Shown: positions 37,335 through 50,742 of the stretch, piece after piece
How the letters are laid out: every line of letters starts with the position of its first letter
Numbering within the stretch: position 1 is the stretch's first letter
Origin: Mesorhizobium sp.
GTDB lineage: Bacteria; Pseudomonadota; Alphaproteobacteria; Rhizobiales; Rhizobiaceae
Reading direction: 5' to 3'
DNA: 64,000 nucleotides
Assembly (NCBI RefSeq): GCF_016793485.1
Contig: NZ_JAEULZ010000046.1
Coordinates: 1-64,000 of the forward strand
Program-made: the position numbers and the translations under genes
The notes under the pieces: generated by a model
What the model saw: only the letters and a program-made list of their open reading frames with translations
Database searches by the model: none
Told to the model about the DNA's origin: nothing

Positions 37335-38573
37335 TCATAGCAGAAGAATCCAGACAGTCGCGAATGCCATGGTCGCGAGCGTCACAAGTGCTCCGGCGCG
37401 GGTAAATTCGCCGAACGATATTTTCAGCCCGTTGGCGGCAGCACGTTCCACCACGATGATGCCGGCAAGGCTGCCGAACACGACCAGATTGCTGGAAAAA
37501 TGCGTGCCGAGGGATAGCGCTGCGCCAAGCGCATTCACGTCGCCGTCCAATTGCAAGTAGGGTACCAGCAGCATGACGGCAGGATTGTTGCCGACAATAT
37601 TGCTTAGCGCCGCGCTTACGAAGAACAGGGAAAGCGGCTGGTTCAGGTCAATGCCGATCGCTGTGAGGTGGCCAAGAAGTTTTTGCGGCAGCCCGGTCGT
37701 TGCGAAGGCGGCGTTCACGACGAACAGGCCAACGATCAAGAGGATAAGATTACCGTCAACATGCTTGAGCATATCCTTCGACGAGACCTGTCGGCTCAGA
37801 AGCAAGAGACCGGCTCCGCTAAGCGCGACCAGTTCACGCGGCCAGTCGCTGAATATGAAGGCCGCGATGACCGCGGCCGCGACAAGCGCCGCCTTGACCG
37901 TTTCCGCGACAGAAAATTCCACAGCCTCTCCGGCGGCACTGGGCTGTATGGTCTCAGGCGGCTTGTAAGACCATTTCCAACGCCCCCGATAGATAAGGCA
38001 AATGGCCGCCCAGATGATGGGGAGTGAAACCAATGCCGGTAGAGCAGCTATTTCCGATACTCCGGCAAAAGACAGGTGAAGCTTTTGCGCCGCAATCATG
38101 TTCTGCGGGCTGCCGATGATGGTGGCGGCGGCCCCTGCATTGGCGGCAAAGCAGAACCCGAGCAGGAACGGTATCGGGTTAAGGCCGCGCGACAGGGTGA
38201 CGGAAATGAGCAGCGGTGTCATGGCGACGGCGACGACGTCGTTGGTCAAGAACGCGGCCATTGCGCCGCTGACCGCAATCAGGATGGCCAGCAGAACCGG
38301 CTCGGCGACGTGTGTTTCCGCCACGCGCCGCGCCGTCCAGGCATAGAAGCCCGAGACGGAAAAAGCAGCCGAAACCACCATGAGGCCGAAGAGCATTCCA
38401 AGACTGCTGTAGTCGATCGCAGTCCAGGCCGCCTGAGCGCTGATGCTGCCCGCCGCCAGCATCGCCACCCCGCCCACGACAGACGCGCCTGTACGATCGA
38501 CCTTGAATCCCGGCAGGGTCCCCAGGCCCATGGCCAAATAGACCAGCAGGAAAATCAGAAGAGTGAGATCCAT
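37335..38573 (-). CDS. SLC13/ArsB-NhaD-type anion permease
   Basis: A 412-residue polytopic permease of the ion-transporter superfamily: 10-12 helices, the hairpin motif AFLTNDVVAVAMTPLLI in the first half and NIVGNNPAVMLLVPYL in the second, the inverted-repeat pair typical of SLC13 and ArsB/NhaD proteins. The substrate could be a dicarboxylate, sulfate or Na+/H+ exchange. ATG 38573 has GGAACG upstream. It lies 82 bases downstream of amt at the end of the urease-ammonium run, so it may belong to that transcript. Confidence 0.78.
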   Translation of the reverse strand: MDLTLLIFLLVYLAMGLGTLPGFKVDRTGASVVGGVAMLAAGSISAQAAWTAIDYSSLGMLFGLMVVSAAFSVSGFYAWTARRVAETHVAEPVLLAILIAVSGAMAAFLTNDVVAVAMTPLLISVTLSRGLNPIPFLLGFCFAANAGAAATIIGSPQNMIAAQKLHLSFAGVSEIAALPALVSLPIIWAAICLIYRGRWKWSYKPPETIQPSAAGEAVEFSVAETVKAALVAAAVIAAFIFSDWPRELVALSGAGLLLLSRQVSSKDMLKHVDGNLILLIVGLFVVNAAFATTGLPQKLLGHLTAIGIDLNQPLSLFFVSAALSNIVGNNPAVMLLVPYLQLDGDVNALGAALSLGTHFSSNLVVFGSLAGIIVVERAAANGLKISFGEFTRAGALVTLATMAFATVWILLL

Positions 38574-38655
38574 ACTTTCGTTCCGACCGGGATCCGGCCC
38601 GCGCCCTTGCAGAACCGTAGAGCGGGCGCGCCGCTCTCCCCAGTTCAACTGCCGA

Positions 38656-39897
38656 TCAACTGTCCGCCTTGGCCTTCATGTTCCATAGGCTGAAGGCCTG
38701 TTCGCCATAGAGATCGTTGTCCAAGCCTTCTTTCTGCACTTCGGCCGGAACACGCAAGCTGCCCAGCACATCGAGAACCTTGAGTATGACGTAGGTGACT
38801 ATCCAAGCGTAGACGACCACGATCACGATCGCCAAGGCCTGGACGAGGAATTGGTGTAGGCTGGCCGAGACTGCATTGATGTTGGAACTTGCGAGGACTC
38901 CGATCAGCAGGGCGCCGGTGATGCCCCCCACGCCATGGGCACGAAAGACCTCGAGTGTGTCATCGACCTTCAACCACTTCTGTATGTATTTTGCATAGTA
39001 GCATGCCGTCGCCCCGATCGCCCCGATGAGCAATGCCGACATCGGCTCGACATAACCAGAGGCAGGCGTGATTGTCGCCAGACCCGTGACCGCGCCCACC
39101 AGCACACCTGAGAACGAAGGCCTGCCCGTCTCTCGCCATTCCCAGAACATCCAGACCAACATGGCAATGGATCCCGCCAGCATCGTGTTGGTGAAAGCAT
39201 ATGCCGCCAGCGCATTGGCGGCGTAGGCTCCGCCGGCATTGAAGCCAAACCATCCGAACCAGAGTAGCCCGGCGCCCACTGCAACGATTGGCAGGCTGGC
39301 CGGGCCCGACCCGCTGTCTCCCGATGCAATAAGGCGCTTGCCGAGAAAACGGGCGGTAGCCAGTGCGGAAACGCCTGCTGCAGCGTGGATGACGATACCA
39401 CCCGCGAAGTCGACAACTCCAAGGCGCGATAGGAAGCCACCTCCCCAGATCCAGTGCGCCACCGGCAGGTAGATCAGGATGGTCCAGAGCGCGATGAAGA
39501 CGAGGTAGGCGCCGAATTTGATGCGCCCAACGAAGGCGCCAGTCATCAGCGCCGGCGTGATGATCGCGAACATCATCTGATAGCCGAAGATGAGAATGAA
39601 CGGGACACCGTTTGCGTAGGTCGGATTCGGATCCACGCCGACACCATACATGCCGAAATAGGTGCCGATATTGCCGATGATGCCGCCGACCGACGGACCG
39701 AAGGCGAGGCTGAAGCCGCCAAACACCCAGATCAGGCTAATCACGCCCATGCAGACGAAATTCTGGATCATGATCGACAGCACGTCGCGCTGCCTTACCA
39801 GACCACCGTAAAACAAGGCCAAAGCGGGCGTCATCATGCAGACGAGCGCCGTACACACCAGCAGGAAGGCGGTGTCACCCGGATTGATAGCGTTCAT
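38656..39897 (-). CDS. amt: Ammonium transporter Amt
   Basis: A 413-residue Amt/Rh protein with 11 hydrophobic segments: MMTPALALFYGGLVRQRDVLS at the N-terminus, PVAHWIWGGGFL, and the pore His residues in FAGGIVIHAAAGVSA and FRAHGVGGITGALL. It conducts ammonium or ammonia across the inner membrane. Its place 25 bases downstream of ureT suggests recapture or export of ammonia produced by urease, not the usual glnK-amt nitrogen-starvation module; no glnK is present. Confidence 0.93.
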   Translation of the reverse strand: MNAINPGDTAFLLVCTALVCMMTPALALFYGGLVRQRDVLSIMIQNFVCMGVISLIWVFGGFSLAFGPSVGGIIGNIGTYFGMYGVGVDPNPTYANGVPFILIFGYQMMFAIITPALMTGAFVGRIKFGAYLVFIALWTILIYLPVAHWIWGGGFLSRLGVVDFAGGIVIHAAAGVSALATARFLGKRLIASGDSGSGPASLPIVAVGAGLLWFGWFGFNAGGAYAANALAAYAFTNTMLAGSIAMLVWMFWEWRETGRPSFSGVLVGAVTGLATITPASGYVEPMSALLIGAIGATACYYAKYIQKWLKVDDTLEVFRAHGVGGITGALLIGVLASSNINAVSASLHQFLVQALAIVIVVVYAWIVTYVILKVLDVLGSLRVPAEVQKEGLDNDLYGEQAFSLWNMKAKADS

Positions 39898-39922
39898 TGT
39901 CTACTCCCAATCTTCAGGAAGA

Positions 39923-40903
39923 CTATTTGTCGGACGTGAGATGACTCGCCACAGCCTTGTGGGGGTGAGGCGCAAGCAGCTTCTTCGGGGCAATGAAAAG
40001 ATACATCGTGAGCACGTAAGGGGCGGTATAGGAGGGAAGCCCGGTCGGCGCCATTATGACGTCGAACGCGCCCTGCACAAAGACGGTGGCGACGGTAGCA
40101 AGCCCAGCATAAAGGACCACGTTGCGCGACGTCTTGAGGAATATCACGCTTACCGCGATGGCCGTCAGGACAGGGCTGAAGCCATACAGGCCCTGTGCCA
40201 CCACCGCCGGATCGGCTTTCATGATGATCGCGATGACAAGGGCGATCAGCGATCCGGCCGCAGCCGCGATGCCTGCGGGACGAGAAGCGATAAAGATGCC
40301 CGCGAGCACGATCACTCCGCTGACGACATCCCCCAGAAGGTAGACCTGGCCGATGTTGCGGAAGAATATCTCGACAAATTCCAACGGCGCCGGTGCCCAG
40401 GTCTGCCCGAGCACATAGTCGGATGCCAGCTTCGGCGCCTCGCCTATCACCTGCAGGGATCCAAACGAATAGGCCCCGGCCAGCAAAAGCCATGCCGTCA
40501 GCACGAAAGGTCCAGTCGATCCAGGGATCCCCCAGCTCTTGGTCAGTGTCGCTGCGAAAGCGGCGGTGAAGACGGTGCTGATCGCGGCTCCAACGATCAC
40601 GTACAGCCACAGTTGTGGAGAGACGGCGATGAAGGTCGGCAACGCAACACCGACGAGAATTCCGTTGAAGCCAAAAAGCCCGGACGAGACTGACGCCTCG
40701 TCACAATCGAGTATCTTGGCCGTATAAGTGGCAACCACGACACCGAGGACCGCACCGATCGCCGTTGCCCATACGCCGGTCGCGAAAGACGCATAACCGA
40801 TCGCCAGGAAAAACAGCGCACCGGTCAAGGCGTTCTCCATGAAGAACACTTGCCCCGCGCCTTTCAGGCATGAGGAAAGAAAGCTGCTTTTTCCAAGTAT
40901 CAT
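39923..40903 (-). CDS. ureT: Urea transporter, UT family (UreT)
   Basis: A 326-residue membrane protein of the urea-transporter family, with duplicated halves: ASVSSGLFGFNGILVGVALP in the first and DPAVVAQGLYGFSPVLTAIAV in the second, the two family LxGFN-type signatures. It imports urea down its gradient. ATG 40903 has AGGGG five bases upstream; the longer frame is rejected. It follows ureD by 19 bases, as ureT does in the Brucella ure2 operon as I recall it. Confidence 0.9.
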   Translation of the reverse strand: MILGKSSFLSSCLKGAGQVFFMENALTGALFFLAIGYASFATGVWATAIGAVLGVVVATYTAKILDCDEASVSSGLFGFNGILVGVALPTFIAVSPQLWLYVIVGAAISTVFTAAFAATLTKSWGIPGSTGPFVLTAWLLLAGAYSFGSLQVIGEAPKLASDYVLGQTWAPAPLEFVEIFFRNIGQVYLLGDVVSGVIVLAGIFIASRPAGIAAAAGSLIALVIAIIMKADPAVVAQGLYGFSPVLTAIAVSVIFLKTSRNVVLYAGLATVATVFVQGAFDVIMAPTGLPSYTAPYVLTMYLFIAPKKLLAPHPHKAVASHLTSDK

Positions 40904-40922
40904 AGCGACCCCTCGCCTTCCC

Positions 40923-41864
40923 TCAGCGCCAAAGAAACTCCTCAGGCAGCGTGCGTCTCCGTGTTTCCTCGCGCACAGCCTGCCAGAAACGTCGTACCTC
41001 TGCCCGAACATCGTAGGTCTCCACTCCCACGGCACGGAACATGAGCCCAGCCTTGTTGGGGAGCATGGAGACGCCGGATATGCTTCGCCTTTCGGACGAC
41101 GGAAAATTCACATCTATCCGCGCGCTGATACGTGCTGCGTTTTCGGGTGGCGTCAGGCACACGACGTTTGCAAATGCATCGAAGCCGCGCATGACGGCCG
41201 TGAAGTCGACCGTGCCGTTGCCCTTCTCGATAAGCACCTTGTCTGTGAAAAGCCGACGGCCATCGGGACGGCGCGCCGAGACCTTCATGGACAGCAAATC
41301 AAAACCGAAGCGTTCGCTCGAATGATGATGCTTGCGCCCGGTCATCATCATCTCCGAGTAAAGCATCGTCGCATCCTCGGCGATGACGATTTCGGTTTCG
41401 TTGATGTAACGCGAATCCCGGTACGGAATAGTGAAGTCTGGCACGTACTCCAGGTATGCGCCGGCTCCGAGATTCACTTCGAGATGCTGCGACGCATAGT
41501 TGGCATCCATCTGATGGATTCGGTTGGCACCCTGCGATGTCACTTGGGCGCAGGCGCCTTCCTCGACGTTTATCTCAAGTCGGTAGCGATCACCCTGCAG
41601 GATGCCCCCGCCCACCGAGATGATTGAACAGATCGGCAGTTCCGGCATCGCTTCATCCCAGTACAGCGCTTGCTGCACCAGAAGCGGAGCCACGCGATAG
41701 AGATCGTGCAGGACGGACCGACCGTCACGAAGGGAGAAACCGAGACGCAACTCACCTATCTTGCCGGGGCCTGCTGCACGCATTTGCGCAGGTTGCTGCG
41801 CTCGAAACTCGCTCAGTTCCCGAGCGTCGTCGATCTGCGTAAGGCGTTCATGCAGCCCCGTCAT
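40923..41864 (-). CDS. ureD: Urease accessory protein UreD
   Basis: A 313-residue UreD/UreH protein. Core motifs are GGILQGDRYRLEINVEEGACAQVTSQGANRIH and LEYVPDFTIPYRDSRY. UreD, with UreF and UreG, docks on apo-urease and delivers nickel through an internal channel. ATG 41864 lies one base after the ureG stop. Placing ureD last among the accessory genes, not first, is typical of the ure2-type order. Confidence 0.92.
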   Translation of the reverse strand: MTGLHERLTQIDDARELSEFRAQQPAQMRAAGPGKIGELRLGFSLRDGRSVLHDLYRVAPLLVQQALYWDEAMPELPICSIISVGGGILQGDRYRLEINVEEGACAQVTSQGANRIHQMDANYASQHLEVNLGAGAYLEYVPDFTIPYRDSRYINETEIVIAEDATMLYSEMMMTGRKHHHSSERFGFDLLSMKVSARRPDGRRLFTDKVLIEKGNGTVDFTAVMRGFDAFANVVCLTPPENAARISARIDVNFPSSERRSISGVSMLPNKAGLMFRAVGVETYDVRAEVRRFWQAVREETRRRTLPEEFLWR

Positions 41865-41865
41865 G

Positions 41866-42513
41866 TCACTCGGCCGCGGTTTGCGCCGGTGTATGTGCAA
41901 CGTCGAACAATGCCATATGCATGATCAGGTCGATCAGGGTATCGACGCCCTCGCCGGTCTTGCAGTTGGTGAAGACGAACGGCTTTTTGCCACGCATCAG
42001 TTTCGAGTCACGGTCCATGACCTCAAGGCTCGCGCCGACGTAAGGGGCCAGATCGGTCTTGTTGATTACCAATATGTCCGACTGGCATACACCCGCCCCG
42101 TTCTTGCGGGGTATCTTATCCCCGGCGGCCACGTCGATCACGTAGATATAGAAGTCTGCCAGCGCCGGGCTGAAGGTTAGCGTCAGATTATCGCCACCGG
42201 ATTCGATCAGGATAACATCGCTGTCTGGATACTTCTCCTCCAACTCCTCCACGGCTGCAATGTTCATCGACGGGTCTTCACGTACCGCGGTATGCGGGCA
42301 CGCACCTGTTTCCACGCCGACGATTTTCTCCTCTATGAGTATGCCATTCAACGTGCGCCGCACCTGCTTGGCATCTTCAGTCGTGACAACGTCATTCGTG
42401 ATGATGAGCGGCTTGATACCCATGTTGATCAGCCTGGGTGTGATGTTTTCGACAACCGCCGTCTTGCCTGAACCAACGGGTCCGCCGATGCCTATGCGCG
42501 TGATCTTCTTCAT
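41866..42513 (-). CDS. ureG: Urease accessory GTPase UreG
   Basis: A 215-residue SIMIBI GTPase. The P-loop is [13 protein letters not shown], the nickel-binding CPH motif appears as [23 protein letters not shown] is the switch-like region, and [11 protein letters not shown] gives guanine specificity. GTP-dependent dimerisation brings nickel to urease. It ends with a short Ala/Thr tail and has no His-rich N-terminus, consistent with metal storage being in UreE. Confidence 0.95.
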
Positions 42514-42537
42514 GGCCTATTCCTGAGTTGGGCCGCA

Positions 42538-43260
42538 TCAATTCATGAACAGCCGAAGATGCGTTTTGGTATGATGCGCGACGAGCACATCGAAGACAGG
42601 TGCGAAGCTGGACATCTCGTCAAGTGCCAGGTCTCGCACGTCGAGATAGTGATCTTTCACCCGCTCCTGCGTTGCAAACAAGATGCGTTGCGTGTCCAGG
42701 TGGTCGATCCTCATCAAGCGCAGCGCAGCACTGAGCACCATTGACGACACGCCATAATGTTGGACCGCGAAGGCTTCGGCTTCACGCGCGCCCATATGCG
42801 CCAAAGCCATTGCCTGGCCGACGGGAAAACATCCGGGGGTAGCGCCGCTCTTGATGTCGTCGAGCCACTGCTCAAGCATTGGAAAATTGCCTATCTTCAA
42901 GGAGAGTTCGGCAAACTTCTTACCCATCCGGGCCAGCATGAGTTGCTGCTCCTCCCCGATGCGACGGTCCCACAACGCGGAGTCCGCTACCCGGACAGCA
43001 CTATAGTCTTCTACCGCCGCCGCGCGATGTGCGTGCAGCAGCGCAATGCCATCCATGTGCGCGGATTGTCGAAGAAGCAGTTCTACGTACTGTCGCAAAC
43101 TGTCGGAGTCATGGACGATTTCCGTCTGCACCGCAGACTCCAGCCCCTGCGAAAACGCGAACGAGCCAATCGGCAGGGTGGAGTCCGAAAACTGCGTGAG
43201 CCGGGCCAGCAGCAGCATGTCCATGCCACTTTCCCGCGCCATGGCAACTGGCCCCGGCAT
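42538..43260 (-). CDS. ureF: Urease accessory protein UreF
   Basis: A 240-residue all-helical UreF protein: LTQFSDSTLPIGSFAFSQGLE near the N-terminus is the family hallmark, and the C-terminal SSFAPVFDVLVAHHTKTHLRLF is typical. It couples UreD to UreG in the activation complex. ATG 43260 overlaps the ureE stop by one base (TGATG); a second in-frame ATG 12 codons on is possible. Confidence 0.92.
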   Translation of the reverse strand: MPGPVAMARESGMDMLLLARLTQFSDSTLPIGSFAFSQGLESAVQTEIVHDSDSLRQYVELLLRQSAHMDGIALLHAHRAAAVEDYSAVRVADSALWDRRIGEEQQLMLARMGKKFAELSLKIGNFPMLEQWLDDIKSGATPGCFPVGQAMALAHMGAREAEAFAVQHYGVSSMVLSAALRLMRIDHLDTQRILFATQERVKDHYLDVRDLALDEMSSFAPVFDVLVAHHTKTHLRLFMN

Positions 43261-43907
43261 CAATGTCCTGCGTCGTGGGAGTGCCCACCACCGTGCTCAT
43301 GGTGGTGATGCTCGTGGTCGTGATCATGGTCATGATCATGATCATGATGGTGAGAACCATGATGATGATGCGGCGTCGCGTCGGCGCCGGCGAAAAGCAG
43401 GCGCACCTCCTTGGCGTCGAGTTTGGCTGCGACCTGTTCGCCGGGCTCAAAATGCATCGTCGCCCGCTTGAAAGCATGAGTCCGCATCACCGAAGACATT
43501 ACCTTCTGATCGACCGACAGCGGGACATATATCGTGGTTCCCTTGATCACCGCCGGCCAGTGCTGGTTCCCAAGTCCGTGGCCCAGTTCGAAAGAAATCC
43601 TCAGTATCTCTGCAGGAGACAAACCTTCGAGATCCTGCATCTCGATGACCATGACTTCCTTCAGGGCGATACGAGCGACGACGATGCGCCCGGCTTCGGC
43701 ATCGTGATACAGGACGTCCCCATCGTGCAGGTGCTCGGAGCGCGACAGAGATATGGCAAGCTCAAGGCCACTGTCAGAAGTCTTCCGGAGCCGGTTCTTC
43801 GGCGCTTCCCATTGCTCAAGCACAAGATACTCGACATCTGCCTTATGGGCGCGCTCGTGCCACGCGGCATCCTTTATATTGCCGAGCGTTTTCTCAACAA
43901 GGATCAT
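43260..43907 (-). CDS. ureE: Urease nickel metallochaperone UreE with long His/Asp tail
   Basis: A 215-residue UreE: an N-terminal peptide-binding domain (about 1-75), a metal-binding domain with ELGHGLGNQHWPAVI carrying the conserved His, and a tail from about residue 180 made almost only of His, Asp, Glu and Gly (HHHHGSHHHDHDHD and following). The tail can store several nickel ions. The tail is coded by a tandem CATGAT-like tract near 43318-43345, in frame, so slippage by whole hexamers would change only tail length. Confidence 0.93.
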   Translation of the reverse strand: MILVEKTLGNIKDAAWHERAHKADVEYLVLEQWEAPKNRLRKTSDSGLELAISLSRSEHLHDGDVLYHDAEAGRIVVARIALKEVMVIEMQDLEGLSPAEILRISFELGHGLGNQHWPAVIKGTTIYVPLSVDQKVMSSVMRTHAFKRATMHFEPGEQVAAKLDAKEVRLLFAGADATPHHHHGSHHHDHDHDHDHDHEHHHHEHGGGHSHDAGH

Positions 43908-43956
43908 AATGCCTCTCTTGCGACCGCAACTGCCGTACCGGTGACGTGACTACCTG

Positions 43957-45675
43957 TCAGCTGAAGAAGTGAAGCTGCGTCAGCGGAAGGCTCGTCGCCG
44001 GCTCGATCGTGGCATGCTTGCCGTCCACGGTCACCGCAAAGGTCTCCGGATTCACCTCGATCGTCGGCAGCGCGTTGTTGCGCACCATGGCGGACTTGCC
44101 CACGGTTCTTGTTCCGTAGACAGGCAGCACTTTCGATTTCAACTCGTAGCGATCGACTATGCCATCCTCGACGGCGGCCAGCGACGTGAAGGTGACTCGG
44201 GTCTTCTGCAAGGCAGATCCCATTGTTCCGAACATCGGACGATAGCGTACCGGCTGCGGTGTCGGCAGGGAGGCATTCGGGTCACCCATCAGCGACCAGG
44301 AGACGAAACCGCCCTTGATGACCATCTTGGGCTTGGCGCCGAAGAACGCCGGTTCCCAAAGAACCAGGTCGGCCATCTTGCCCAGTTCGATCGAGCCGAT
44401 CACATGGCCGACGCCCTGTGCGATCGCTGGATTGATCGTAACTTTCGCAACGAAGCGCAGGACGCGCTGGTTGTCGTTGCCGGAATCGTCACCACCGTAT
44501 GCGCCACGACGCAGCTTCATGAGGTGCGCGGTCTGCACGGTGCGCAACCAGTTCTCGCCGACACGACCCATGGCCTGGCTGTCGCTCGACAGGATCGAAA
44601 TCGCGCCAAGATCGTGAAGCACGTTCTCCGCGGCAATCGTTTCGGCGCGTACCCGGCTTTCGGCAAATGCCACGTCGGTCGGAATCTTGGGGCTGAGATT
44701 GTGACAGATCATGGTCATGTCAAACAATTCGGCCTGCGAGTTGATGCCGTAGGGCAACGTCGGATTGGTCGAACTCGGCAACACGTTGGGCTGGCCTGCC
44801 ACGCGGATGATGTCCGGCGCATGGCCACCACCGGCACCTTCCGTATGATAGGTATGGATGGTGCGCCCCTCGAACGCGGCGATCGTATTTTCGACGAAGC
44901 CGGCCTCGTTCAGAGTGTCGGTATGAATGCAGACCTGCACGTCGTACCGGTCCGCGACCGTAAGCGCCGTACGAATCGCTTCCGGCGTGCTGCCCCAGTC
45001 CTCGTGGATCTTCAATCCGAATGCGCCGGCATGAATCTGCTCTTCCAGCGGCGCGATGCCGGAGCAGTTGCCCTTGCCCAGGACACCTGCGTTGACGGGC
45101 CAGGTATCGAACGAGCGGAGCATCATTTCGATGTTCCACGTTCCAGGTGTGATCGTGGTGCCGTTGGTGCCGTCGGTCGGCCCGATGCCGCCACCAAACA
45201 GAGTTGTGACGCCATTGCTCAGCGCCGCCTCCGCCTGCTGCGGCGAAATGAAGTGGACGTGGGCGTCGATGCCGCCAGCCGTCAGGATCAGGTGCTCACC
45301 CGAGATAGCATCCGTGCCAGGGCCAAGAGCCAGCCCGCTGGTCACGCCCGACATCGTCGAGGGATTGCCGGCCTTGCCTATTCCGCAGATGACACCGTTC
45401 TTGATGCCGACATCTGCCTTGATGATGCCCTGTATCGCATCGACTATCGTAACGTTCGTGATGACCAGGTCAGGGGCGCCGGCGGCGCTGGTCAGTTCGT
45501 TGTCGAAGCCCATGCCGTCGCGCAGCGTCTTGCCGCCGCCGTAAACGGCCTCCTCGCCATAGACGCGAAGATCCTTCTCGATCTCGATGTAAAGCTCTGT
45601 GTCGCCCAGGCGTATCTTGTCGCCGGTCGTTGGTCCGTAGAGGTCGGAATACTGCTGCCGTGAGATTTTCGCCAT
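43957..45675 (-). CDS. ureC: Urease subunit alpha UreC
   Basis: A 572-residue catalytic urease subunit. Nickel ligands are visible: DAHVHF for the first His pair, GLKIHEDWG with the Lys to be carbamylated, VCIHTDT, and [12 protein letters not shown]. The mobile flap reads MICHNLSP, keeping the Cys and catalytic His but with Asn where many ureases have a second His (CHHLD). [12 protein letters not shown] supplies the Asp ligand. The long antisense frame opposite this gene is a coding-bias shadow. Length and all key residues indicate an active enzyme. Confidence 0.96.
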
Positions 45676-45713
45676 GATCAGGCCCGCCAGATACTTGAGG
45701 TTGGAAAGGAGGC

Positions 45714-46121
45714 TTAACGCTTGTTCTTGAACCCGTATCGCTCGACACGGTCCATGGCATCGACCAGCCGCGGACGGGAGTCGTCATAACTCTCGTCGCC
45801 AACCCAACCGTTTACCAGTCCATTGAAACCAATGACGCGCTGTTTGCCCTGAAATGGAACGAGCACGACCTGCTTCTCGTCGCCCGGCTCGAAACGAAGT
45901 GCTGTCGTTGCCGGAATGTTAAGCCGCTTTCCGAAAGCCTGTTGTCTATCGAATTCCAAAGAGGAATTGACCTCAAAGAAATGGAAATGGGATCCGACCT
46001 GGATCGGCCGATCACCGGTATTCCGGACTTTCAGCTTTGTCGTCGGGTAGCCTGCATTTATCTCGATGTCGCCGGAAGCAAGAACTAGCCCACCGACAGG
46101 CGTCTTCGCCTTCTTTGCCAT
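45714..46121 (-). CDS. ureB: Urease subunit beta UreB
   Basis: A 135-residue beta subunit: [43 protein letters not shown] is the conserved core (FHFFEVN), followed by [20 protein letters not shown]. It has a short Lys-rich N-terminus longer than in the minimal subunit. It assembles with UreA and UreC into the trimer. Separate ureA and ureB genes are typical of bacterial ureases outside Helicobacter. Confidence 0.95.
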
Positions 46122-46138
46122 GTTCCTCTCCTTCGATT

Positions 46139-46441
46139 TTATTGAATTGGATCGTGGACGGTTACGAGTCGGCTGCCATCCGTGAAGACGGCCTCGACCT
46201 GAACGTAGGGGATCATCTCCACAACCCCCTCCATCACGTCCTTGACGGTCAGGGTTTTGCGGGCGAGTTCCATCACCTCTTCGACCGTCTTGCCGGCGCG
46301 AGCGCCATCGAGAGCGGCTGATGCTATGAGCGATACCGCCTCCGGATGATTCAGCTTGAGCCCCTCGTCCTTTCGCCGCTGCGCAACCATCGCCATCATG
46401 TAAATCATGAGCTTGTCTGTTTCGCGGGGGGTGAGATGCAC
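46139..46441 (-). CDS. ureA: Urease subunit gamma UreA
   Basis: A 100-residue gamma subunit: [22 protein letters not shown] at the N-terminus, [24 protein letters not shown] and [10 protein letters not shown]-like end. The start is GTG 46441, with a perfect AGGAGG six bases upstream, giving the standard family length; the longer frame from 46498 is rejected. It is the first structural gene of the urease block, 283 bases after nikO. Confidence 0.94.
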
Positions 46442-46724
46442 GCCGAGCCTCCTAGATGTCCCGAATTTGACAACTTGCAGTCGTAAAGCCAACACCATTA
46501 AGACACGAATTTCCCAATGTAAGCAACCTTCTGTGGGCTCTTTTAGGTAATTCCCCGACGGCTAAAATCCGCCGTGGCCAAAGTTCACGATTTAACGATG
46601 AAAAAGTAAGTTTCGGCGAGCGCGCAACACGCTTGGCGTCCGGAAATCGGAACCTGAGCCCAGGGCTATCGTCGCAGAATCTTCCACCTCGTCTGCGCCG
46701 AAGGGTATCACTGTTTCACGACAA
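46442..46724. other. Gap between nikO and ureA
   Basis: The 283 bases contain the ureA ribosome site AGGAGG and a small hairpin ACGGC-TAAAATCC-GCCGT at 46559-46576, which is too weak to call a terminator. No coding frame or NikR-type site was found here. Either an internal urease promoter lies here or the nik transcript continues into ure. Confidence 0.45.
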
Positions 46725-47432
46725 TTATTTGTGTGCGGGGTGTATGTGGCGATGCACATGCGTATGTGGGTGATCGTGAATTTCTGCGTCCCGCAGGTGG
46801 CCGTCGTCAAGCAACAGGGCTCGGGTGGCAAGGTCGGCAACGACATTCGGATCATGGGACACCAGGATCATCGCCCCACCAAATCCAAGCAACAGATCTT
46901 TCAGTCGAATCCCGTTGGCGACGTCGACGCCATTTGTCGGCTCGTCCAGCAGCAGAACATCCGGCGCCATGGCAAGGAGACCTGCCAGGCATACCAAGCG
47001 CTTTTCCCCGCCCGAGAGTTTATGGACAGCACGTCCGGCCAGATGCATCAGTCCCAGCTGATCGAGGGTCGCTTCCGCCGTGGCGCGCGCTTGCTCGTTG
47101 GACTGGCCAAGATTGAGCGGACCAAAAGCAACATCTTCCATCACCGAAGGGCAGAAAAGCTGGTCGTCGCTATCCTGGAACAGGAAGCCTATCCGCCGGC
47201 GGGCAACGCGAAAGTCGGCCTCGTGCACGCAAACCTCGCCGAACAATGACACGTTGCCGGCAACGCCCGCTTCAAGACCGACGAGGGTGCGTAGCAGCGT
47301 CGTTTTTCCAGCACCATTCGGCCCGACGATGGCGAGGCGATCCCCCGGGAACAGTGCGAGATCGACCTGACGCAGCACCTTGCGGCCCTCCCGCACCACG
47401 TCGATCCCGTCAATCGCTATGAGCGGCGTCAT
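46725..47432 (-). CDS. nikO: ECF-type nickel transporter ATPase, NikO (CbiO-like)
   Basis: A 235-residue energy-coupling ATPase: Walker A GPNGAGKTT, Q-loop LFQDSDDQLFCPSVMEDVAFGP typical of CbiO, signature LSGGEKRLVC, Walker B VLLLDEPTNGVD and switch VSHDP. The C-terminus is a short His-rich tail (HDHPHTHVHRHIHPAH), unusual for a CbiO protein and probably able to bind metal. It overlaps nikQ by four bases. Confidence 0.92.
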   Translation of the reverse strand: MTPLIAIDGIDVVREGRKVLRQVDLALFPGDRLAIVGPNGAGKTTLLRTLVGLEAGVAGNVSLFGEVCVHEADFRVARRRIGFLFQDSDDQLFCPSVMEDVAFGPLNLGQSNEQARATAEATLDQLGLMHLAGRAVHKLSGGEKRLVCLAGLLAMAPDVLLLDEPTNGVDVANGIRLKDLLLGFGGAMILVSHDPNVVADLATRALLLDDGHLRDAEIHDHPHTHVHRHIHPAHK

Positions 47433-48160
47433 AGTGTGTCCCAGATCAGAACCAGGAGAGTGAAGGAAACGAAAGCGGTGCCGACGATCCAGTCGCGCAG
47501 TGTTGGTGCCGCCTGAGCAGTTGAGGGAAAACGACCCGCGTAGCCACGCAGGCGCATAGCTTCCTCAACGCGGTCGGCCCGCTCCATGGCGCGCAGCAGC
47601 AGCATTCCGACGAGATAGCCATAGCTCCGCCATGTATGGCGGTTAGATTTTGGACGGAAGGACCGCAGGCGCATGGCATCTTGAAGCCTGGCAAATTCCT
47701 GCCGGATCAATCCCAGATAGCGAACGACGCCAAGAAATATACGCACCAGCGTCTCTGGAATTCCGAGCCAGCGTAGCGCAACGCTGATCTGCACCGGTTC
47801 AGCGTCTGCGAAGAAAAGCATCAGAAGCAGCACCGATCCGGCGACTTTTGTCGCGAGAACGAGCGCGCGCTCAAGACCTTCATTTGTAGCGACCAGCGGA
47901 CCCAGTTCAAACAGCGTTGTGCCCGGGACAGTGAACGGCAGGGTCACAAAAAGCAGGAGCAGGAAGCCCTCGACGTGCATGAGCCTTCGCCATGGCATCT
48001 TGGTACGCGAAAAAGCTACGGCCGACAGGACAAATGCCAGATAGGCGCACGCGGGTCCGAGGGCCGAAACCGGGGTGGCAATCAGTATCACTGTCAAGGC
48101 AGTGACAATCCTGACAGAAAAGTCTTGCGGACCAATCACGAGCGGCGACCGCGAGCCCAT
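47429..48160 (-). CDS. nikQ: ECF-type nickel transporter transmembrane protein, NikQ (CbiQ-like)
   Basis: A 243-residue CbiQ-family T component. It has four to five helices in the first half, then LQDAMRLRSFRPKSN and RVEEAMRLRGYAGRFPS, the two Ala-Arg coupling helices that contact the ATPases. ATG 48160 (GGCGGGA upstream) overlaps nikL by 25 bases; GTG 48139 would give a four-base overlap and is the alternative start. Confidence 0.88.
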   Translation of the reverse strand: MGSRSPLVIGPQDFSVRIVTALTVILIATPVSALGPACAYLAFVLSAVAFSRTKMPWRRLMHVEGFLLLLFVTLPFTVPGTTLFELGPLVATNEGLERALVLATKVAGSVLLLMLFFADAEPVQISVALRWLGIPETLVRIFLGVVRYLGLIRQEFARLQDAMRLRSFRPKSNRHTWRSYGYLVGMLLLRAMERADRVEEAMRLRGYAGRFPSTAQAAPTLRDWIVGTAFVSFTLLVLIWDTL

Positions 48161-48705
48161 AACACAATCCCGCCTATCCCCAGAATGAGGCAAACCGATG
48201 CGATGACGTCGGTCAACCGCATTCGTGCATCCATCTGTTCAACACGCTCCAGAAGCGGGGCGAGTTGACGCTCGACAGCCGCTTCAATCGCGGCTTCGAC
48301 AAGAGCAGGCTTTTGCACATTCTTATCGTCAAGAGGTCGCGAGACATCAGATTGAATGGCAATGTCACCGGCAGCGTCGTCCACCGATGCTGAGAACCGC
48401 CGCGCGGGCAGGGTTCTGCTCGCCACATGGCCTTCCCCTGTATTGATTGCCACGGTTATTTCAGCGCTCACAGGCTCAGGCGTCCGGAAACGAAATCCTC
48501 CGTTGCCGTCCGTGGTGCCGCTGGCGATTTCGATTTCGCCCATTCTGGCGTTCCAACTTACTCCTTTGGGCCGCCCGCCGCCGACGAAGAAGCCATAGCC
48601 AGAAACCTCCTCGCCACTGACCGTAGCGAAAACACGCAGACTGTGTGCACTCGCGGGGGAGGAAAGCAGGATAAGGACGGCGAGCCATCTCAGCACAGAG
48701 ATCAT
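48136..48705 (-). CDS. nikL: Nickel transporter accessory protein NikL (CbiL-like)
   Basis: A 189-residue protein: signal peptide ending SSPASAHS, a beta-rich extracytoplasmic domain (EVSGYGFFVGGGRPKG, GTTDGNGGFRFRTP), a helical stretch with RQLAPLLERVEQMDARM, and one C-terminal membrane helix ending ARGRRS. This is the NikL/CbiL layout. It overlaps nikM by ATGA. The mature N-terminal His after cleavage (AHSLRVF) could contribute to metal capture. Confidence 0.85.
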   Translation of the reverse strand: MISVLRWLAVLILLSSPASAHSLRVFATVSGEEVSGYGFFVGGGRPKGVSWNARMGEIEIASGTTDGNGGFRFRTPEPVSAEITVAINTGEGHVASRTLPARRFSASVDDAAGDIAIQSDVSRPLDDKNVQKPALVEAAIEAAVERQLAPLLERVEQMDARMRLTDVIASVCLILGIGGIVLWARGRRS

Positions 48706-49334
48706 GTTGTGGCCCCTGCTGACGAGAGACGAGGGAGCAGCAGGTCAGGGTTCGCGCGCTTGAGGAAGGTAACGATCGCCGCGCAAACGAGTGCTTCGCC
48801 GATCGCTAGTGGCGTATAGGTGATGAGGACTATTCGCGCGACCGGTATGTAATCTGGTGAAGACAGCCAAAGATCCATCGCGACCAGAATGCCGGTCAGA
48901 AAGACACACAAGCCGGCAGATAGTGCAGCCGCAAAAGCTGCGCCCGCAACATTGTGCGTTCTGCGAATGTACGGACCCACAAGAACTCCGACAAGAAATC
49001 CGGGCATCGCGATATTGAACGTGTTGACGCCGAGCGTTGTCAGGCCGCCGAAGCCGAACATGACAGCCTGCAATGCCAGCGCAACTACCGTGGCCAGAAA
49101 TATCCCAGGGCCTAGTATGATGCCCAACAGCGCCGATAGCAGCAGGTGCACGCTGGCCGGCCCAACGGGAACCGACACCAGGGACACTGCGAAGAAGGTT
49201 GCCGACAGGATAGAGATACGCGCAATTGCGCGATCGTCGATCTGCCTTAGTCCGTAGGCAACACCTGCGGCAGCGAGAATGGACGCCCCGGAGAGAACGG
49301 GAAGCGACAAGATGCCATCGGCGATGTGCGCCAT
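48702..49334 (-). CDS. nikM: ECF-type nickel substrate-binding membrane protein NikM (CbiM-like)
   Basis: A 210-residue S component of CbiM type. It begins MAHIADGIL: the N-terminal Met-Ala-His inserts into the membrane and provides the amino-terminal and His2 nickel ligands known from NikM structures. VPVGPASVHLLLSALLG contains the further conserved His. Six to seven helices. It follows nikK by four bases. Confidence 0.92.
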   Translation of the reverse strand: MAHIADGILSLPVLSGASILAAAGVAYGLRQIDDRAIARISILSATFFAVSLVSVPVGPASVHLLLSALLGIILGPGIFLATVVALALQAVMFGFGGLTTLGVNTFNIAMPGFLVGVLVGPYIRRTHNVAGAAFAAALSAGLCVFLTGILVAMDLWLSSPDYIPVARIVLITYTPLAIGEALVCAAIVTFLKRANPDLLLPRLSSAGATT

Positions 49335-49338
49335 CGGA

Positions 49339-50106
49339 TCACTCGGCCGGCTTGGTCTTTACCCAGATCAACGCGCCTTCCTCTACCGGAGCCTCCTTTC
49401 CGTCGGGCGACATCAACGATTTATCGCCTTCGATCAGCGCGGCAAATCCCCACCAGCCCGATACCGGCATCGCATAAGAGAAGGTGCCGTTGGCATCGGC
49501 CTTTATCACTTGGGTGATATAGAGATCGTTGGGCGGTTTTATGCCGCGCTCGTTGATGAACTCCACCTCAACCTCGGCGAAAGGAACGGCCTCGCCGCTC
49601 TTGGTTACGACCCCGGTAAAGATATTACCCGTCCACAGGCTGGTTGGCCGGCTCAAAGGTCGTATTTCAACCGGAAATCCTACCATTTCATCCCAGCCTT
49701 CGCCTGAGGCGTAGCTGTCCACCACGACTTTGGAGTAGTGGACGATGAATTTTCCCTCGGCAGGCTCCCAATATGGCGCGGGCTCGACGAAGAAGATCGC
49801 GCCGCCGGGCTCTATCAACTCGTGCTTCAGCGTGTAACCCTTCACACCGTCCACCGGCTTCGCGGTGAGGGCTGAGGAAAGATCCGTCTTCACACCGTTC
49901 GCCAACACGCCAATCTGCTTTGGCCGCTCCATATTCATTCTTGGACCAGCCTCGAATGGATGGGTGAAAACCAGCTCCAGCGTGACCTCGCCACCCTCAG
50001 GCAATACGTCGGCCGAAGGGATGATCTCCTGAAAATGCGCCCAAACCGGCGTAGCAACGCTCACCGCAAAGCTGAACGTCAGCACCAGACCATGCAACAT
50101 CTTCAT
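49339..50106 (-). CDS. nikK: Periplasmic nickel-transport protein NikK (DUF4198)
   Basis: A 255-residue exported protein of the DUF4198/NikK type: signal peptide MKMLHGLVLTFSFAVSVATPVWA, mature start HFQEIIPSADVLPEGG with an N-terminal His, the FTHPFEAGPRMNMERPKQIGV core, and a late VEVEFINERGIKPP. It is thought to collect nickel in the periplasm for NikMLQO. ATG 50106 is chosen because the longer frame would place the NikR-type operator inside the gene. Confidence 0.85.
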   Translation of the reverse strand: MKMLHGLVLTFSFAVSVATPVWAHFQEIIPSADVLPEGGEVTLELVFTHPFEAGPRMNMERPKQIGVLANGVKTDLSSALTAKPVDGVKGYTLKHELIEPGGAIFFVEPAPYWEPAEGKFIVHYSKVVVDSYASGEGWDEMVGFPVEIRPLSRPTSLWTGNIFTGVVTKSGEAVPFAEVEVEFINERGIKPPNDLYITQVIKADANGTFSYAMPVSGWWGFAALIEGDKSLMSPDGKEAPVEEGALIWVKTKPAE

Positions 50107-50137
50107 CCAGAGATACCTATTAGCCGCACGCTTCATC

Positions 50138-50165
50138 GTATGAATAATAGAACAATAAATCATAC
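50138..50165. promoter_or_regulatory. NikR-type operator between nikK and nikR
   Basis: GTATGA (50138-50143), 16 bases, TCATAC (50160-50165): an exact match to the half-sites and spacing of the E. coli NikR operator consensus GTATGA-N16-TCATAC. It lies 31 bases upstream of the nikK ATG and about 100 bases before divergent nikR, so it can repress the nikKMLQO-ure transcript and perhaps nikR itself. Confidence 0.9.
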
Positions 50166-50265
50166 TAGATCGCAACGCCAACTGAAAAAGTCCCATTACA
50201 TGAAATCCTCCTGCTTTCGCCGGAGGCCAGGCGCCTGTAAGGTTTGTCAGTTGGAGGATTGCGGT

Positions 50266-50742
50266 ATGCAGAGAACAACGATCACGCTGGACGAAGAACT
50301 TGCGACCGAACTAGATGCTTTCATCGGGACAGGCGGCGCATCGAGCCGATCCGAGGCGATACGAGATCTGATCAGGGCAGGTCTGGCGAACAGGAGGCAA
50401 GGTTCCGATTCAGCACTTTGCTTTGGGGTCGTCAGCTATGCCGTAGATCAATCGGTGCGCAAACTCGCGAGTCGAATTCCGCAGAGCCGGATGAACCGGC
50501 ATGACCAGACGGTTGCTTCCTTATCGGTCCCGCTTGATCATTCGACCACCATCGATGTCGTTGTCATGCGCGGTAGGCTGGGTGATATTTCCAGCTACGC
50601 GGAGGCGCTGTTTTTCGAACGCGGCGTCATGCACGGAACATTGGGACTGATCCCCGTATATGAGGATGACGAACGTCACGTTCACGATGAGAGCAGTGCC
50701 CGGCACCGACACACTCATTTGAAGGTCCGCGCCGCTTTCTAA
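50266..50742 (+). CDS. nikR: NikR-family ribbon-helix-helix regulator lacking the canonical nickel ligands
   Basis: A 158-residue NikR-like protein. The RHH DNA-binding part (MQRTTITLDEELATELDAF, RSEAIRDLIRAGL) is intact. Aligned without gaps to E. coli NikR over the ACT-like domain, the four nickel ligands His76, His87, His89 and Cys95 are Met76, Ser87, Pro89 and Thr95. The flanking fold motifs (RGRLGDISSYAEALFFERGVMHG) remain. A 25-residue extension rich in His (DDERHVHDESSARHRHTH) follows. GGAGG precedes ATG 50266 by nine bases. Divergent from nikK, with the operator between them. Confidence 0.88.
   Translation: MQRTTITLDEELATELDAFIGTGGASSRSEAIRDLIRAGLANRRQGSDSALCFGVVSYAVDQSVRKLASRIPQSRMNRHDQTVASLSVPLDHSTTIDVVVMRGRLGDISSYAEALFFERGVMHGTLGLIPVYEDDERHVHDESSARHRHTHLKVRAAF

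Follow-up and report, generated by a model that had tools for sequence, protein, structure and literature searches.

A NikR clade lacking the classical nickel ligands, with a conserved histidine-rich tail and NikR operators beside nickel importer genes

The window analyzed here, a 64,000-nucleotide stretch of Mesorhizobium sp. DNA (contig NZ_JAEULZ010000046.1, positions 1 to 64,000), encodes a protein that, judging from its sequence, is a NikR variant of a new sort, without the classical nickel site. It belongs to a clade, here called SxP, in which the loss of nickel ligands goes together with an invariant set of histidines in a C-terminal tail. We put at roughly even chances the reading that these proteins are working repressors of nickel import that have abandoned the His3Cys site and bind nickel, or a similar divalent metal, elsewhere, the proposed site being the tail. 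For comparison, PMC7055735 describes E. coli NikR as binding nickel through His87, His89 and Cys95 plus His76 of a neighboring subunit, and gives its operator as GTATGA-N16-TCATAC; PMC9860126 states that the His3Cys site is conserved among NikR homologs.

The window gene and its neighborhood

Residues 1-130 of the window NikR give a gapless alignment with E. coli NikR (1q5v; phmmer, E 6e-26), which makes the ligand positions unambiguous: positions 76, 87, 89 and 95 read M, S, P and T, so that the protein lacks a His3Cys site (H76, H87, H89, C95). This confirms the replacements reported in the first-pass annotation, which was made from this DNA alone, and its statement that the DNA-binding domain and fold are retained also holds, since both the RHH_1 and the NikR_C matches exceed their Pfam cut-offs (Table 1). 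Of the more specific family models, NF002815 scored the protein above its cut-off (124.2 bits against 83), and TIGR02793 (121.1 bits, cut-off 175.45) and NF003381 (80.1 bits, cut-off 105) scored it below theirs. Because the NikR domains are present and the classical ligands absent, nickel-responsiveness of this protein is something we infer, in our case from the genes linked to it. Past Pro130 its C-terminus reads HVHDESSARHRHTHLKVRAAF, with 5 His among the 25 residues of the tail (134-158). An AlphaFold model, built from 3 sequences and of low confidence (mean pLDDT 59.2), resembled 1q5y in a Foldseek comparison (TM 0.80 by target length), which bears out the NikR fold and nothing more; the tail scored below 50 and the model is uninformative about a tail site.

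The exact operator beside nikR and the nickel importer genes, also noted at first pass, was borne out as well, and it is unique in the genome. It was the only match with at most one mismatch in the window, where 0 of 100 shuffles matched, and the only exact site in the 5.2 Mb genome, which had no site with 1 mismatch. Another 26 sites have 2 mismatches, as many as chance would give: the forward pattern had 27 matches in total and a reversed control 31. On the nikK strand, a -10-like TATGAT overlaps the operator (1 promoter-like site found where 0.2 were expected), and nikK is likely to be the first gene of an operator-controlled operon.

The surroundings of the urease cluster offer some further observations. 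The stretch downstream of ureD (37335-41035) contains genes resembling those for a urea transporter and an ammonium transporter, and one for a permease (the latter two identified by eye); their order matches a Roseomonas marmotae plasmid; on that plasmid, two CrcB-family genes fall within the urease cluster (locus L077, 15353-16129). The C-terminal stretch of the window's UreE (43260-43907) is rich in His and Asp, as in several nickel proteins.

Table 1. Features of the window discussed in the text.
Feature	Coordinates	Strand	Details and evidence
nikR-like gene, 158 aa	50266..50742	+	Ligand positions M76, S87, P89, T95
Ribbon-helix-helix DNA-binding domain, residues 3-40	50272..50385	+	PF01402 RHH_1, 35.7 bits, cut-off 20.5
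NikR_C domain, residues 54-128, ligands gone, fold retained	50425..50649	+	PF08753, 58 bits, cut-off 22
Met76 codon, where ligand His76 is expected	50491..50493	+	phmmer alignment with E. coli NikR
Ser87-Val88-Pro89 codons, where ligands His87 and His89 are expected	50524..50532	+	Alignment; Ser and Pro fixed in 41/41 SxP
Thr95 codon, where ligand Cys95 is expected	50548..50550	+	Alignment
C-terminal tail, residues 134-158, proposed new metal site	50665..50739	+	His138, 140, 147, 149, 151 and Phe158
Exact NikR operator GTATGA-N16-TCATAC (predicted)	50138..50165	.	Pattern match, shuffles, genome scan
Promoter-like site for nikK, -10-like hexamer inside operator	50159..50188	-	Consensus match alone, 9/12
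nikK (DUF4198), start codon 50136 or 50106	49339..50136	-	PF10670, 174.9 bits
nikM (CbiM-like)	48702..49334	-	Profile match
nikL	48136..48705	-	NF058648, above cut-off
nikQ (ECF T component)	47429..48193	-	TIGR02454, above cut-off
nikO (ATPase), CbiO-like	46725..47432	-	TIGR01166, 162.3 bits, under its cut-off
Urease genes ureA, B, C, E, F, G, D, in this order past nikO	40923..46498	-	ORFs; names via Roseomonas marmotae annotation and tblastn

The SxP clade and its operators

Relatives were drawn from named genome contigs, from plasmids (the sequences of 5 of 54 records being included) and from further genomes; two viral-contig loci, matching residues 2-53 alone, were excluded. SxP proteins occurred in 3 of the 25 genomes with a NikR match in the family sample (297 genomes); three other genomes of the genus Mesorhizobium had none. 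The order sample, in which 107 of 397 genomes had a match, gave 26 SxP proteins among 110 NikR matches, the remainder having HHHC (72), RQPV/LQPF/QAPR (7) or HQHC/HQYC/QRPC (5) at the ligand positions. A sample of the class contained a single SxP protein among 14 matches, the window's own, and one of the phylum contained two, both already in our set, among 29 matches (24 with sequences examined). The family of Cereibacter johrii was the richest source: 11 of its 13 NikR matches, from 295 genomes, were SxP. After removal of one repeat (L134), the set comprised 41 distinct proteins.

Position 87 is Ser and position 89 Pro in every one of these proteins, and position 95 is never Cys (Ser in 19, Ala in 16, Thr in 5, Met in 1). 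At position 76 we found Leu (23), Gln (6), Met (2) and, in 10 proteins that have lost its three partner ligands, the original His. Every one of the 41 proteins combines the substitutions with the tail, which answers a question put by the first-pass annotation, namely whether the two are kept in related proteins. In a tree of 97 sequences, from whose alignment the ligand columns and the tail were excluded, the 37 distinct SxP sequences formed one group (SH-aLRT/bootstrap 99.9/100, branch length 0.51) with a mean internal identity of 55% and a minimum of 37%. A second tree (163 sequences) recovered the same group with support 1.0 and required the classical site to switch six times between the intact and the damaged state. 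By these phylogenetic measures the SxP clade has a single origin.

The operator is similarly widespread. It is present in exact form at 28 of the 41 SxP loci and with at most one mismatch at 32, and 60 permuted half-sites gave no match. Among 40 whole genomes, 32 contain the exact box and 8 do not, and the reversed pattern is found in none. In total, 40 exact sites occur in these 32 genomes. Of these, 28 adjoin nikR/importer loci, 4 precede an unlinked nikK, 3 precede other operons of the NikABC type, 3 adjoin a gene resembling a GntR-type regulator, and the remaining 2 fall where an ORF of a different type begins. In four genomes where nikR is unlinked (G514, G423, G1058 and G1345), the sole exact box lies just upstream of nikK. 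As far as sequence can show, binding to the old operator is strongly implied.

Two of these site classes deserve a separate mention. The boxes next to the GntR/HutC-type-like regulator gene (L287 8686, L292 8760 and L293 8529, all from genus g177) are second exact boxes, not next to nickel genes. The other two (L290 7919 and L291 9033), where an ORF of roughly 550 aa resembling a sensor-domain protein begins, are perhaps due to chance.

Importer genes, called when at least 2 of NikK/M/L/Q or at least 2 of NikA/B/C matched (tblastn, E up to 1e-5), lie near nikR at 35 of the 41 loci, 25 being of the NikK/M/L/Q type and 10 of the NikA/B/C type. The NikA/B/C matches come from a large transporter family and, where an identity was given, were 26-37% identical; SBP_bac_5 proteins adjoin all 5 of the NikA/B/C-type loci tested, and these neighbors, together with the box, support nickel transport by the NikA/B/C-type genes, although they stop short of proof. 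Urease genes, in contrast, fall within the locus stretch at only 4 of the 41, and we therefore rejected the urea- or ammonia-linked signal that the first-pass annotation had entertained. Among the options it listed, sensing of nickel through the tail or another site appears to be the best supported.

The tail, the old pocket and what the protein may sense

All 41 SxP proteins share the tail motif HxH...HxH...F: His138, His140, His149, His151 and Phe158 are invariant, Phe158 is the C-terminal residue in 31, and His147 is found in 25. At each invariant tail His, both CAC and CAT occur across the set, so silent changes have happened while the amino acid was kept. Outside its fixed residues the tail evolves faster than the core: in 15 of the 17 pairs compared, dN was higher for the tail. 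Four core residues are invariant as well, namely Cys52, His79, His92 and His123, which among 116 distinct four-ligand NikRs are present in 85%, 89%, 53% and 58%, respectively.

In the mechanism we propose, the four invariant tail histidines would form a metal site, to which core His79, His92 and His123 (and Cys52) may also contribute. Metal bound there would fasten the tail to the tetrameric domain, thereby favoring the DNA-bound form, the same one that classical nickel binding favors; the dimeric DNA-binding domains would then sit on GTATGA-N16-TCATAC, covering the promoter of nikK (or nikA) and turning import off.

The strict form of the motif (tail His plus Phe) was found in 37 of 37 SxP sequences versus 1 of the 126 other tree sequences. 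That one, L139, from the family of Cereibacter johrii, keeps H76, H87, H89 and C95 and has the complete motif with its terminal Phe, which means that the tail and the classical site are able to coexist. The His-rich, 25-residue C-terminal addition noted at first pass is therefore real but not strictly new. Three other four-ligand NikRs (L014, L021 and L061) have a looser HxH...HxH tail. A history in which the tail arose beside the classical site, took over sensing and was followed by dismantling of the His3Cys site, with operator, regulon and fold unchanged, strikes us as a little short of an even bet; L139 might then be a relic of the intermediate, although its branch in the first tree is long and lies apart from SxP.

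The alternative with the most in its favor, although we think it unlikely, is a repressor that binds its operator without any metal, so that repression is constant or is set by expression of the protein, with the tail put to some other use such as steadying the tetramer. Most SxP proteins, all except those with a residual His76, have indeed lost the four ligands entirely, and a second group suggests that metal-free NikRs can persist. This group (L183, L211, L213, L215, L219, L222 and L228, family f27), with RQPV, LQPF or QAPR at the ligand positions, is tail-less and forms a separate tree group (support 0.991); 5 of its 7 members lie in nikKMLQO loci, and operator-like sites with 1-3 mismatches were found in the three loci examined. 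Since ligands were lost there with no tail gained, metal sensing may vanish unreplaced beside nickel genes. However, constant repression would not call for four tail histidines that are invariant in 41 of 41 proteins, and the tail-less group has also lost the core residues His79 and His92 that SxP keeps, as if SxP still required these histidines.

The tail-less group also contradicts the idea that a tail universally compensates for ligand loss, which we had considered. The remaining groups with lost ligands do have tails. Five proteins (L209, L226, L237, L238 and L240), each 261-267 aa long, end in a His-rich tail of some 130 residues and have lost their ligands in part (HQYC, QRPC or HQHC); in the three nikK loci of this group that were examined, a box GTATGA...TCATAT with a spacer of 15 lies upstream of nikK. 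The tails of this group and of the singles L022, L079 and L080 fit the loose form HxH-x(3-9)-HxH. With SxP included, that form is present in 5 of 6 ligand-loss groups versus 38 of 111 four-ligand NikRs. By hand arithmetic, the chance of 5 in 6 at the latter rate is about 0.02, for sequences that are not independent and were partly found via tail-bearing profiles.

A second alternative, which we regard as rather improbable, is that the old pocket, now lined by Arg75, Ser87, Pro89 and Ser, Thr or Ala at position 95, takes a different effector, such as an anion or a small metabolite, leaving the tail as a secondary nickel buffer or a lid. The pocket does look rebuilt: Ser87 and Pro89 are fixed rather than drifting, Arg75 is present in 41 of 41 SxP proteins and in 0 of 116 four-ligand NikRs, and the corresponding frequencies are 95% versus 0% for Phe116 and 100% versus 34% for Ser57. 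Such fixed rebuilding would fit a pocket that receives the tail and one that receives a new effector alike, but the genes linked to nikR across the clade are nickel importers, calling for a signal linked to nickel, and the clade is not known to have a candidate metabolite gene in common.

His-rich ends of other nickel proteins have been proposed as nickel stores. The SxP tail might accordingly be a store or chaperone-like ballast while sensing goes through weak core sites, for instance Glu30 and Asp34 at the domain interface, an explanation to which we give little weight. These two residues are kept in 100% and 98% of the 41 proteins, yet they are equally fixed in four-ligand NikRs and hence do not distinguish SxP; in addition, a store needs only to be rich in His at no fixed positions, yet four His and the Phe of the tail are fixed. 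PMC7055735 does describe the Glu30/Asp34 site of E. coli NikR as able to accept Ni(II).

Finally, a decaying copy whose operator is served by another NikR, a prospect raised in the first-pass annotation as what might undo its reading, is very improbable, given that each of the 40 SxP genomes searched contains exactly one NikR_C domain, that the core is under purifying selection and that the same changes recur in 41 proteins. The same search found a match in 5 of 14 control genomes, E. coli among them, and it found no second NikR in the window's own genome, one of the 40. Of the 15 pairs for which core dN/dS could be measured, 14 gave values no higher than 0.173 and one gave 0.439; in 2 more pairs dS was saturated. 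By these sequence measures the window NikR is not decaying. The nearest case to a backup is Roseomonas marmotae, seen from its plasmids and outside the 40 whole-genome searches: p1318-3 has an SxP NikR beside nikKMLQO and a box with 2 mismatches, and p1318-4 has a four-ligand NikR beside nikABC and an exact box.

Taken together, the exact boxes, the linkage to importer genes, the box before unlinked nikK genes and the single NikR per genome point to an apparently working nickel-import repressor, neither decayed nor specific to urea.

Comparison with known systems

In the literature searched, which included few subscription papers, we found no account of NikRs that form a clade lacking the His3Cys site. 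Models of NikR allostery start from that site, and SxP offers a natural experiment: either an allosteric switch that is driven from another site, or a NikR that regulates without nickel. On a practical level, the database name "nickel-responsive regulator NikR", given for instance to the protein of locus L077, is no guarantee of a nickel site.

E. coli NikR (1q5v, 2hza, 2hzv) resembles the window NikR in domain order, in its alignability over 130 residues, in its operator and in the placement of that operator in the control region of a nickel importer, whereas it has the His3Cys site and does not have the 25-residue conserved tail. The four-ligand protein L139, and more loosely L014, L021 and L061, share the HxH...HxH tail with SxP but keep all four ligands, and the RQPV/LQPF/QAPR proteins share the ligand loss and the nikKMLQO setting but not the tail, His79 or His92. 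Outside the family, SlyD, UreE and Hpn have His-rich ends with short HxH-type clusters like those of the SxP tail, and the HGHxH of Thermus SlyD binds Ni or Zn, according to PMC7055735. Those proteins are chaperones or stores, whereas the SxP tail has its histidines at fixed positions and is part of a DNA-binding regulator.
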